Positions 5,437 through 64,000 of a stretch of 64,000 nucleotides of DNA are shown here, in pieces (within the stretch, counting starts at the first letter, position 1; every line of letters begins with the position of its first letter). The notes beneath the pieces are model-generated. The model made no database searches, had not been told where the DNA came from, and saw nothing but the letters and a program-made list of their open reading frames with translations. The position numbers and the translations under genes are program-made. This DNA is from Microcaldota archaeon (GTDB lineage: Archaea > Micrarchaeota > Micrarchaeia > Norongarragalinales > UBA97), in assembly GCA_016194335.1 (NCBI GenBank), contig JACQBR010000021.1, forward strand, positions 1-64,000, written 5' to 3'.

Positions 5437-5619
5437 TCAGTTCACCTGTTGGCTATTTTGGTCTTTGGTAAGGATGTTGTCCGGAACAATAATTTAAAGA
5501 GGCGGGATTGGGCCGGGAAAGGCATTTGGACCTGCAGGAAGGGAGTGCCCGGAAAAACGGGGGGTTCGGCCAGAGGGGCAATAGGGACACGGGCAATTTT
5601 ATCGACGAGCTTTTCCGTC

Positions 5620-5797
5620 AACGCTTTTCGAGCGAGTCGAACGGAGCGAATATTTTCCGTAAACGCTTTTCGAGCGAGTCGAACGGAGCGAATATTTTCC
5701 GTAAACGCTTTTCGAGCGCGCCGAGGAGGCGAAGCCGACGAGCAAGCGAGGAAAAGGGTTTAGCGAGTGAAGAAAGGGTTGAGCGAAGAAAGGGCAT
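5620..5797. repeat. nested hairpin repeat cluster (three left arms, three right arms)
   Basis: AACGCTTTTC at 5620, 5662, 5704 (two identical 42-bp units 5620-5661 and 5662-5703); complementary right arms GAAAAGGGTT (ends 5760), GAAGAAAGGGTT (ends 5780), AGAAAGGGCAT (~5797). Confidence 0.85.
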
Positions 5798-5872
5798 GGT
5801 TAATCTCCCCCCAGGGTTTTCGAGCTTTCTCGACGAGCCTGCAGGCGAGGAGAAAAGCGAAGAAAGGGCTGT

Positions 5873-20373: not shown

Positions 20374-20569
20374 TTTTTTCCTCGCAGATATTTCGTGAAG
20401 TTAACTTAAATACCTTGCGTTGGGAGATTGCCGAAAAATGAAAAAACGCAATTTTCCCGAAGCGTTTGCTGCGAATGGTAATAAGGCAGCGCCGCCAATA
20501 TAGCTAAAGTATCTTGGATGCGGCGTCCGCAGACTTCAATCGAGCCGCTCTTGCGACTCAGTTTCCGTC

Positions 20570-20626
20570 AACGCTTTCAAGCGAGTCGAACGGAGCGAAG
20601 CGGAGTGAGCGAGCGCAGAAAGGGTT
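20570..20626. repeat. hairpin repeat, un-nested copy
   Basis: AACGCTTTCAAGCGAGTCGAACGGAGCGAAGCGGAGTGAGCGAGCGCAGAAAGGGTT; ends complementary. Confidence 0.8.
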
Positions 20627-20643
20627 GTTCGGAGGAGATTTTT

Positions 20644-21813
20644 TTGGCAGTTGAATTCGAGCTGCGGGGCGAAGGGCTGGTAGTGGCGAACCTCCTTTCA
20701 GTGCAGGCCATTGACAAGGGATTTTTCGGAAGCGAGTACGAAGGGAGGAAAACCCAGCTTTCGCTCATGCCCGAAGAGGGCCTCTACCTCATGGATGTGC
20801 GGGGGGCGGTGTGCAGGAGGCAGAGCGACGGGCACGAATTGTCGTTCAACACCGTAGCCTCGAAGTTCCAGGGGAAGAAATTCCTCGCAAGGTATTACTG
20901 CTACCGCGACTGGCGCGACCGCGGCATCATAGCGCGGCCGATGTCCGAGGCTCACGGGAATTACGGCCGCTCGCCCGTGCTGAAATACCCCTCGCAGGAT
21001 TACGCCCCGCCCAAGGTGCGTTCCAAGGGCCTCTACTTCTACGACGACCTGATGAGCGTGATTGACGACAACGCGGCGGGCGAGGCGCTTTACGAAAACG
21101 GCTGGTACGGCCAGTACGGGACCTACAAGGCCAAAAAGCACGGCCAGTACCTCAAGCTCGACGCGTACGAATCCCTTTTCCTGATGAAGCACTCAGGCTA
21201 CGCGCTCAACATCAAGGAAGAACGCCTCATCAAGGAAGCGAAGATGCGCCGTGCCGACTTCCTCGCGCTTTACGACGTGTACGAGGATTGGAGGCTGCGC
21301 GGCTTTGTCCTCAAGACGGGATTCAAGTTCGGCACCCACTTCCGCCTCTACTTCCCCGGCGCCAACCCCAACCTCGCCAACGACGAGTGGATGCACTCCA
21401 AGCACGTCATCCACGTCTTCCCCCGCGAGAGCAAGATGCTCATTTCAGAATGGGCTCGGGCCATCCGCGTTGCCCACGGGGTGAAAAAAACTTTCATCCT
21501 CGCAATTCCCGGAATCAAGAAACCCGAGGACGCGGGGGTGGAGCTTGACTTCCTCCTCTACCACCGCAAGAAGGAGGGGATTGAAAACCCGCGCCACGAC
21601 AAACCGAAATTCGTCATGCTCGCGCTTTCCGAAGAGGAGGAAATCGGCGGGGCCGAGCTTGCGGGCGCGATAGAGCAGGCCAAGCAATTGGGGCTCGACC
21701 TCATCCTCTCAATCTGCGACCGCGAGACCAGCGTCACGCACTACCGCGTCAAGCGCATCGAACTGCCGAAAAGCAAGTACGAATACTACGAGATAGAATG
21801 GGTGCAGCCGTGA
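20644..21813 (+). CDS. endA: tRNA-splicing endonuclease, apparent three-unit (epsilon-2) architecture
   Basis: Two N-domain-like repeats (..LYLMDVRGAV..RYYCYRDWRDRGII / ..LFLMKHSGYAL..ALYDVYEDWRLRGFVLKTGFKFGTHFRLY), catalytic C-domain HSKHVIHV...GVKKTFILAI, then a further C-domain-like unit; TTG start after GGAGG RBS. Confidence 0.85.
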   Translation: MAVEFELRGEGLVVANLLSVQAIDKGFFGSEYEGRKTQLSLMPEEGLYLMDVRGAVCRRQSDGHELSFNTVASKFQGKKFLARYYCYRDWRDRGIIARPMSEAHGNYGRSPVLKYPSQDYAPPKVRSKGLYFYDDLMSVIDDNAAGEALYENGWYGQYGTYKAKKHGQYLKLDAYESLFLMKHSGYALNIKEERLIKEAKMRRADFLALYDVYEDWRLRGFVLKTGFKFGTHFRLYFPGANPNLANDEWMHSKHVIHVFPRESKMLISEWARAIRVAHGVKKTFILAIPGIKKPEDAGVELDFLLYHRKKEGIENPRHDKPKFVMLALSEEEEIGGAELAGAIEQAKQLGLDLILSICDRETSVTHYRVKRIELPKSKYEYYEIEWVQP

Positions 21814-23515: not shown

Positions 23516-23609
23516 GCGCGCTTAGCCGTTTTTATTCCTTGCCTATTAAAAGCTGTCTAAAGCTTTGTTCCGTTTGAAGTGCAAAGTAAAGGGAGTTGTC
23601 AAGCAGCCA

Positions 23610-25172
23610 ATGTTCTGGGCAGATTCGATTGCGAAGGAAGCGCCGCTTTCCAACGGCGCGAAGAAGCACGTGGTGGGCGACGGCAAGACACCGTCGGGCC
23701 GCATTCACGTGGGCAGCCTGCGGGGCGTGGTGACCCACGACGCGATTTACCGCGCGCTTCTCGACGCGGGCAAGGAAGCTGAATTCGTCTACCGCTTTGA
23801 CGATTACGACGCGCTTGACGCGGTGCCCGCCTATCTCCCGCCCGAATATTGCGAGCATTTGGGCAAGCCGCTTAGCGAAATCCCTTCCCCCGAGCCGGGC
23901 TTCCGCTCTTACGGGGCGTTTTTCGCCCTGGAATTCCAATCCGCGTTCGAGAAGCTCGGCTGCCACCCGAGGGTGGAGTGGGCAAGCGAGGACTACAAGG
24001 GCGGGAAGATGAATGCCGTCCTCAAGGAGGCGATGGAGAAGGCGGAAATCATCCGCGAGATTAACGCGAGGGTGAGCGCGGCGAAAAAGGCGGACGGCTG
24101 GCTTCCCATCCACGCGGTTTGCGAAAAGTGCGGCCGCATCTCAACAACGCAGTCCCGGAATTTTGACGGCGAAACCGTGGAATACGCCTGCACGTCTGCG
24201 CGTTACGTCAAGGGCTGCGGCCACGCGGGCAGGCGCTCGCCATTCAACGGCGGGGCGAAGCTCACGTGGAAGGCTCATTGGGCGGCGCAGTTCAAGGTTT
24301 ACGGAATCACGATTGAAGGCGAGGGCAAGGACCTCGCTACCGTCGGGGGGGCGAGGGACGCGACGAACGAAATTTGTAGGAAGGTCTTCAATTACGAGCC
24401 GCCTTACGACTTGCCCTACGAGTTTTTCCTTGTTGGCGGGAAGAAGATGAGCACTTCGAAGGGCACGGGAATGAGCGCGAGGGAAATCGCGGAATTCCTC
24501 TCCCCCGAAGTCCTGCGTTTCCTGCTTGCGCGCTACAAGCCGCGCACCGCGATCAACTTCAGCCCCGAGGGCGAGACCGTGCCGAAGCTTTACGACGATT
24601 TCGACTCTTTTGCCGAAGCGCATTTCAGGCGCAGGGAGCCCCGCGACCCCGACGAGCCGCGCATCTACGAACTGAGTTCGGTGAGGCACGCCAAGCCCGG
24701 CGATTTCCTCAAGCCGCCGTTCCCTCTTGTCGCGTACCTCATCCAGGTGCCCCACATCGACGTGGTGAAGGTGTTCAACGACCGAAAGGGAACGCCCCTC
24801 ACGCTTGAGGAGCTTGCGTGCCTGCAGGAGCGCGTGCGGGTTGCGAGATTGTGGCTTGAGAAATTTGCGGGCGAGGAGTTCAAGTTCAGGCTCATCGAGC
24901 ACGCGGAGGCAATCAAGAAATTCCATTCGCTCCCCGCCGGGGCGCAGAGGGCGCTGCACGAATTTTCCGAGTTCTTCGCCCAAACCAATGACGAAGCCGC
25001 GCAGGCGAACAAGATCCGCGAAGTGTGCGAAAAGCACGGGATTTCGGTGCAGGACTTCTACAAGGCCGCCTACGCAATCACGATCGGGAAGGAAAAGGGC
25101 CCCAAGCTCCTCCCGTTCATTTCAAGCCTCGAGCGGCCTTTCGTCGTGCAGAGGTTCATGGGGGTCGTGTAG
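23610..25172 (+). CDS. lysS: class I lysyl-tRNA synthetase
   Basis: HVVGDGKTPSGRIHVGSLRGVVTHDAIYRAL; KKMSTSKGTGM. Confidence 0.95.
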   Translation: MFWADSIAKEAPLSNGAKKHVVGDGKTPSGRIHVGSLRGVVTHDAIYRALLDAGKEAEFVYRFDDYDALDAVPAYLPPEYCEHLGKPLSEIPSPEPGFRSYGAFFALEFQSAFEKLGCHPRVEWASEDYKGGKMNAVLKEAMEKAEIIREINARVSAAKKADGWLPIHAVCEKCGRISTTQSRNFDGETVEYACTSARYVKGCGHAGRRSPFNGGAKLTWKAHWAAQFKVYGITIEGEGKDLATVGGARDATNEICRKVFNYEPPYDLPYEFFLVGGKKMSTSKGTGMSAREIAEFLSPEVLRFLLARYKPRTAINFSPEGETVPKLYDDFDSFAEAHFRRREPRDPDEPRIYELSSVRHAKPGDFLKPPFPLVAYLIQVPHIDVVKVFNDRKGTPLTLEELACLQERVRVARLWLEKFAGEEFKFRLIEHAEAIKKFHSLPAGAQRALHEFSEFFAQTNDEAAQANKIREVCEKHGISVQDFYKAAYAITIGKEKGPKLLPFISSLERPFVVQRFMGVV

Positions 25173-28970: not shown

Positions 28971-29157
28971 CGGGCCCGGTGGGATTTCCGGCAAATGGCC
29001 TGTTCTGCTGTTATGCGGGTTTGAACCTTGCGCAGCTTTTGGTGAAGCTTTTCAAGGAGCGGACGAACGAAGTGAGGAGCACCGCAGAAAAGGTTCTTCG
29101 GACCCACGACACCCTGGTTAAAAGCCAGGCGCTCTGGCCAAGCTGAGCTACGGGCCC
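28971..29157 (-). tRNA. tRNA-Lys(UUU) with a ~112-nt T-loop intron
   Basis: GGGCCCG TA GCTC-AGCTTGGCCA-GAGC G CCTGG-CTTTTAA-CCAGG GTGTC GTGGG-TCCGAA | intron 29097..28986 (or 29096..28985) | AT-CCCAC CGGGCCC G; mature 75 nt. Confidence 0.92.
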
Positions 29158-63686: not shown

Positions 63687-63707
63687 AAGAAGACGCCGCT
63701 TTCCGCC

Positions 63708-63825
63708 AGCGCTTTCGAGCGAGTCGAAAGGAGCGAATATTTCCCGTAAACGCTTTTCGAGCGCGTCGAGGAGGCGAAGCCGACGAGCAAGCGAGGAAAA
63801 GGGTTTAGCGAGCGAAGAAAGGGCT
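63708..63825. repeat. nested hairpin repeat cluster (two left, two right arms)
   Basis: Outer AGCGCTTTC(63708)/GAAAGGGCT(63825); inner AACGCTTTTC...GAAAAGGGTT 63749-63805, 56/57 identical to 5704-5760. Confidence 0.85.
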
Positions 63826-63828
63826 GAG

Positions 63829-64000
63829 TGGACCCGCCGGGATTTTCAAAACATTTTCCGTCCAGCTTTCGAAGCGTGCGCCGCTTTTGGTGAAGCTTTT
63901 CAAGCACCGCAGAACGCGAGCATAAGAAAGCGAGAGCTTCGAGGAGCGCAGAAAAGGTTCATTGAACCCGGTATTTCCAACTTGCGAAGCTGGCGTCTTG
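63829..64000 (-). tRNA. tRNA-Ala(CGC), 5' part beyond window edge, with ~118-nt T-loop intron
   Basis: ...CCAGC-TTCGCAA-GTTGG AAATA CCGGG-TTCAA | intron 63961..63844 | AT-CCCGG CGGGTCC A; U70 in the acceptor 3' strand is compatible with the G3:U70 Ala identity pair. Confidence 0.82.

Follow-up and report, generated by a model that had tools for sequence, protein, structure and literature searches.

A dispersed repeat in the T-loop intron of a tRNA-Lys(UUU) gene from Micrarchaeota

The tRNA-Lys(UUU) gene described here lies on the minus strand (29157-28971) of a 64,000-nt stretch of micrarchaeal DNA, referred to below as the window, and carries a 112-nt intron in its T-loop at position 59/60. 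The presence of this intron is confirmed, and its origin from a dispersed repeat is strongly supported. We put the probability that this is a functional, obligatorily spliced gene whose intron came from insertion of the repeat at roughly 0.88, and we infer that splicing takes place. In the primary transcript, the T-stem would form the outer helix of a BHB motif and T-loop bases 54-57 would pair with the intron's final bases; the epsilon2 splicing endonuclease EndA, encoded 8 kb away, would cut both bulges at 59/60, and RtcB would join the exons. The intron itself probably came from a small, structured repeat without coding capacity that inserted here; the repeat remains scattered through the genome, preferentially in tRNA T-loops and D-loops. 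By the same process, different lineage-specific repeats have probably filled T-loops across Micrarchaeota.

Read on the minus strand from 29157, the gene runs GGGCCCG-TA-GCTC-AGCTTGGCCA-GAGC-G-CCTGG-CTTTTAA-CCAGG-GTGTC-GTGGG-TCCGAA, followed by the 112 nt and then by T-CCCAC-CGGGCCC-G. Exon 1 (29097..29157, 61 nt) comprises positions 1-59 with the anticodon TTT, the intron occupies 28985..29096, and exon 2 (28971..28984, 14 nt) contributes position 60, the 3' strands of the T-stem and acceptor stem, and G73. The acceptor stem GGGCCCG/CGGGCCC is paired at 7/7 positions, the T-stem GTGGG/CCCAC at 5/5 and the central helix TCCG/CGGA at 4/4. The 5' strand of this helix (29099..29102) corresponds to tRNA positions 54-57 and its 3' strand (28987..28990) is intronic; a 3-nt bulge flanks it on each side, AAG (29096..29098) and AAT (28984..28986). 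BHB motifs are cut between the second and third bulge bases, a rule that predicts cuts at 29097/29096 and 28985/28984 and gives the exon and intron lengths above. Rfam aligned exon 1 as a tRNA (RF00005, 34.3 bits). ARAGORN found no tRNA in the unspliced window and a perfect tRNA-Lys(ttt) in the joined exons, i.e. removal of the intron exactly restores the mature tRNA. The tRNA identity, the T-loop location, the intron length and the BHB layout had all been proposed in the initial annotation, and each of them holds, as do the coordinates given there.

In a predicted RNA fold of the locus, the acceptor stem, D-arm, anticodon arm and T-stem all formed, as did the 4-bp helix and, at its 3' side, the 3-nt bulge. 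At the 5' side the prediction was a 2x2 internal loop and, beyond it, an inner helix of 3 bp, which bears out the weak inner pairing remarked on earlier. A directly adjacent inner helix (strict hBHBh') is absent from the predicted fold; because the 5' side folds as an internal loop, the motif is predicted to be a relaxed BHB, not a strict one. A closing helix GAACCTT/AAGGTTC, suggested in the initial annotation, is present in the sequence but is not used by the predicted fold. Broad-specificity enzymes accept relaxed BHB forms (PMC4033280), and the orthologous intron in genome G027 has a textbook strict BHB fold with the inner helix GAGGG/CCCTC. Fold energy alone was dropped as evidence for the locus, with z only -1.4 to -1.7. 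At the gathering threshold, Rfam returned only tRNA and no intron family across the window, and the idea that the intron harbours a group I intron, or another RNA known to Rfam, was rejected for want of a match.

The pairing of exon bases 54-57 with the 3' end of the intron at this gene can be compared across many introns. In 29 distinct T-arm/intron ends, 98.5% of cells are paired, versus 79.6% in shuffles and at most 64% with slid partners; position 57 and its partner form A-U in 16 and G-C in 9. All of 34 hand-tabulated introns hold at least 3/4 pairs, with four Watson-Crick pairs in 23, and base 57 changes together with its partner (A-T in 20, G-C in 10; Fisher P=2.5e-7, or P=8e-4 without the paralogues of genome G058). 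Position 55 likewise changes with its partner: C55 in the window is matched by an intronic G (TCCG/CGGA), as it is in a tRNA-Arg of the same genome. Sequence covariation thus shows the exon-intron helix 54-57 to be real.

What would splice such a gene? The window encodes an epsilon2 three-unit tRNA splicing endonuclease, EndA (20518..21813, plus strand, 431 aa), about 8 kb from the tRNA-Lys(UUU) locus. It matches 4fz2 with E=9.5e-124, query residues 50-431 aligning near full length to chain residues 10-387 and preserving the three-unit architecture. The catalytic residues (Y236, H251, K282) and the ARMAN-specific-loop (ASL) residues (Y160, K161) named for ARMAN-2 EndA in PMC12397907 are all conserved. 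The enzyme is like the ARMAN-2 epsilon2 endonuclease (4fz2/9w2k) both in its full-length homology and in its catalytic and ASL residues; it differs in its putative substrate, here a T-loop intron. The ARMAN-type context proposed for the intron at the outset also holds. Epsilon2-type EndA cleaves non-canonical introns (PMC4033280). RtcB is encoded elsewhere in the same genome.

The core of the intron (29031..29095, minus strand), AACCTTTTCTGCG...CTTGAAAAGCTTCACCAAAAGCTGCG when read from 29095 to 29031, gave 12 BLAST matches in the host genome (G000; 1.18 Mb, 28 contigs, about 85% complete). Six of these 12 copies lie within tRNA genes (binomial P=2e-10); the others are found in the RNase P RNA gene (1), directly 3' of tRNAs (3) and between genes (2). 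Combining searches with selected stretches, our census of tRNAs and repeats places the repeat in T-loop introns of tRNA-Lys(UUU), tRNA-Ala(CGC) and tRNA-Arg(CCG, contig C9), and in D-loop introns of tRNA-Arg(CCG), of the tRNAs at C17:40689 and C10:15616 (the latter a tRNA-Leu), and of a class II tRNA (called Ser) at C17:54813. Outside tRNA genes, it occurs within the RNase P RNA gene at C21:6320-6399 (RF00373, E=2e-19), 3 nt past tRNA-Pro (C11), as a tandem pair past a His-like tRNA (C24), and in intergenic copies at C24:3608 and C11:72783. Three copies (C11:36755, C11:72783, C10:15616) have further hairpins nested at one common point. Different tRNAs of this genome carry highly similar introns, those of tRNA-Lys and tRNA-Arg being 94% identical over 69 nt. 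The tRNA-Ala(CGC) gene reaches into the window on the minus strand: its exon 1 (63961-64018 of contig C23) lies partly inside the window, at 63961..64000, its repeat-bearing 118-nt T-loop intron (59/60) at 63843..63960 and its exon 2 at 63829..63842, and ARAGORN identifies the spliced form as tRNA-Ala(cgc). Because the copies are near-identical, recent spread is implied, and the repeat probably moves. A search for the core in 39 relatives, 4 of them of the same family, returned no substantial match and one 31-nt partial match.

Other Micrarchaeota have repeats of their own. Joint searches with T-loop introns or tRNA-flanking segments from eight other genomes as queries revealed a dispersed element specific to each of the 8/8 genomes, with 7 to 33 matches per genome. 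The most extreme case is G058, where 20/20 distinct loci of the element are T-loops at 59/60 of different tRNAs (by anticodon Lys, Gly, Asn, Glu, Ala, Arg, Leu, Gln, Tyr and others), about half of the expected tRNA set. The 5' halves of these introns are up to 98% identical; the T-stems and the pairing with base 57 are host-specific. In the scan that chose the junctions, 54-57 pairing was scored weakly; since T-stem and acceptor pairing fix the junction, any bias should be small. A target-site duplication, suggested by TTCGAA at both ends of some of these introns, was rejected for most, because hosts with TTCA have its complement TGAA at the 3' end and not a direct repeat. G009 has its element both in T-loop introns and as arrays between genes.

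Several relatives carry what may be footprints of insertion. In G017, G024 and G059, an intact tRNA-Lys is followed 65-109 nt downstream by a second copy of its 3' end (16 nt, 0-1 mismatch), and the element is located between the two; the tRNA-Lys of G020 has a similar but less exact duplication. Other tRNAs of G017, G020 and G059 have the element flanked by a duplicate of each tRNA's own 3' end, and one tRNA of G059 carries a tandem array of element and 3'-end units. These duplications suggest that T-loop introns arose from insertion with 3'-end duplication, or from recombination; order and mechanism are our reading of the loci, and no locus was seen midway between the duplication stage and the intron stage. 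The likeliest route of gain would begin at the DNA level, with an insertion at the tRNA and duplication of the tRNA 3' end; decay of the proximal end could then make splicing to the distal copy obligatory. The direction would then have run from insertion to intron. Extended to a general scheme, in which short non-coding mobile repeats of Micrarchaeota insert at tRNAs, duplicate the 3' end and, once the proximal end has decayed, leave an obligatory T-loop intron for epsilon2 EndA to remove, this proposal is tentative and, on balance, doubtful.

Could the introns have spread without a dedicated mobile element? Two tRNA genes could recombine, or one could convert another, via the T-loop/B-box (GGTTCRA...AATCC), and such an exchange would draw on a target sequence common to all tRNAs. 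It also suits G006, where the T-loop intron of a tRNA-Ala recurs in identical form, together with the tRNA-Ala 3' exon, downstream of tRNA-Lys; since this copy carries another tRNA's 3' exon, recombination fits it as well as insertion does. The first 48-49 nt of the same segment also begin a T-loop intron of tRNA-Leu. However, intron 3' ends are fitted to base 57 of each host (A-U or G-C) and the T-stems are host-specific, and the copies in D-loops, the RNase P RNA and intergenic regions lack that T-loop/B-box target. Spread by recombination is possible but falls somewhat short of probable. The absence of an RVT_1 domain from five genomes searched speaks in its favour and led us to reject a reverse transcriptase as the mover. 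A Y1 transposase/RAYT was rejected as well: the repeat modules do not flank it, and its five matches are confined to the host genome among five genomes tested, the other intron-rich ones having none. LAGLIDADG domains are present in 5/5 genomes tested. The Y1 matches themselves lie on contigs C24, C21, C26, C13 and C7, and those of C24, C26 and C13 are at the edge of their contigs, which suggests that an IS200/RAYT-like element is active.

Our preferred reading, an intron gained from a repeat, finds further support in the orthologous genes. Within the same family, tRNA-Lys(UUU) is intronless in G001, G003 and G004, and the tRNA-Lys of G002 has an anticodon-loop intron only. Elsewhere, at least 10 other Micrarchaeota have T-loop introns in their tRNA-Lys, at 59/60 in G009, G013, G016, G027, G029, G043, G046, G051 and G058 and at 56/57 in G033, G045 and G047; they range from tens of nt up to 173 nt and vary in sequence between genomes. 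An intron in this gene is not a matter of chance, since family orthologues are intronless and at least 10 other Micrarchaeota have T-loop introns there. The 56/57 introns of G033, G047 and G045 (L164, L169, L177) all end GCCCAA|AAATCCC, and their intronic GCCC pairs with exon GGGT, replacing its T-stem partner.

The occurrence of such introns in several families of the class would also be expected of an ordinary, vertically inherited archaeal intron whose likeness to the repeat reflects hairpin elements independently recruited into introns, and the element does sit outside tRNA introns too, as its copies within RNase P RNA and downstream of tRNA-Pro show. Inheritance of this kind is improbable: same-family orthologues lack the intron, four same-family genomes lack the repeat, and in G058 the introns of different tRNAs are up to 98% identical in their 5' halves and share the exact 59/60 site. 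A dead gene, inactivated by the repeat and backed up by an intact copy in the 15% that the assembly lacks, is very hard to credit even though the assembly is incomplete and the repeat also occupies non-tRNA places, as the exon stems are all perfectly paired, compensatory change keeps the exon-intron helix across genomes, the same arrangement recurs in tRNA-Lys of at least 10 others and the genome encodes an EndA suited to such introns. An intact second tRNA-Lys(UUU), which the initial annotation had named as counter-evidence, was sought through the anticodon loops CTTTTAA or CTCTTAA; the about 85%-complete genome gave 1 match, at 29157-28971, and no second Lys(UUU).

We would like to place the inserted repeat in the context of other systems that gain introns. 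Eukaryotic introners, likewise repeats, give rise to numerous introns at a time, and the micrarchaeal elements resemble them in this respect; unlike introners, they reside in tRNA genes and their splicing would be a putative BHB reaction carried out by a protein endonuclease, and homology is not claimed. Closer to home, 59/60 and 56/57 introns of archaeal tRNAs are already listed (PMC4090602), so that the single tRNA-Lys gene is a further case of known 59/60 introns. It shares with the non-canonical introns of Crenarchaeota, Nanoarchaeota and ARMAN (PMC4090602, PMC4033280) the position, the BHB or relaxed BHB and a broad-specificity EndA in the same genome, and differs from them in that the intron core is a repeat also found outside tRNA genes. 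For Thermoproteales, transposition of tRNA introns was inferred from near-identical introns in different isoacceptors by a mechanism termed unknown (2010, MBE 27:2233, as cited in PMC4090602 and PMC4033280). As far as those citing accounts go, the Micrarchaeota share such introns and differ in their epsilon2 EndA, in the dominance of the T-loop in G058, in having copies between genes, 3' of tRNAs and within RNase P RNA, and in the duplication of the tRNA 3' end at some insertions. Integration of a mobile element at a tRNA had also been proposed to be connected with tRNA fragments and the gain of introns in Caldiarchaeum, whose tRNA-Thr is disrupted by a 1.8-kb recombinase element (PMC3293823); in contrast, the elements described here are short, non-coding and present at many tRNAs in many genomes. 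What is new is the repeat family inside and outside introns, together with the 3'-end duplications, and no description of such a repeat/intron system for Micrarchaeota was found in the open-licence literature.

If the general scheme of insertion, 3'-end duplication and decay is true, archaea would have a counterpart of eukaryotic introners that is spliced by a protein, and the gain of archaeal tRNA introns would have a concrete route. Since a dispersed repeat, copies of it outside introns, intronless genes in the same family and duplication-bearing loci in relatives can all be set beside this intron, intron gain is testable by strain comparison. There is also a practical side: standard tRNA finders overlook many tRNAs in these genomes (ARAGORN reported no tRNA in any of 19 G058 loci), and overlooked tRNAs can pass for missing tRNAs or low completeness.

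A few further features of the locus and the genome deserve mention. The eIF2gamma of the host genome is nearest to that of the MAG DeMMO2_14, followed by named Micrarchaeota. Around the tRNA-Lys locus lie genes for a class I lysyl-tRNA synthetase, eIF2gamma, NDK and adenylate kinase, and a PIN-like gene. The synthetase (LysRS-1; 23565..25172, plus strand; PF01921, E=7.5e-91), encoded about 4 kb from the tRNA gene, is presumably the user of this tRNA. At 29101, C55 replaces the near-universal U55, the pseudouridine site; it is no artefact of the intron, because intronless relatives carry it too (G028, G026 and G001; loci L004, L005 and L009 are among the relatives with C55). The tRNA-Lys(CUU) gene, from C18:59425 onwards, has a T-loop intron of its own, which the direct repeat TCCGAAA bounds and whose central helix is weaker, as well as an anticodon-stem intron. 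Of the three introns in the tRNA-Arg(CCG) on C9 (about 5500-5830), two hold the repeat, one in the D-loop and one in the T-loop. There is also a second hairpin repeat, CCCTTTTCTTTCTTT...AAAGAAAGAAAAGCCCTTGGGGAAAAGAAAGAA, which occupies a D-loop intron and lies on the 3' side of several tRNAs (L129, L125, L131; window ~63700-63830).
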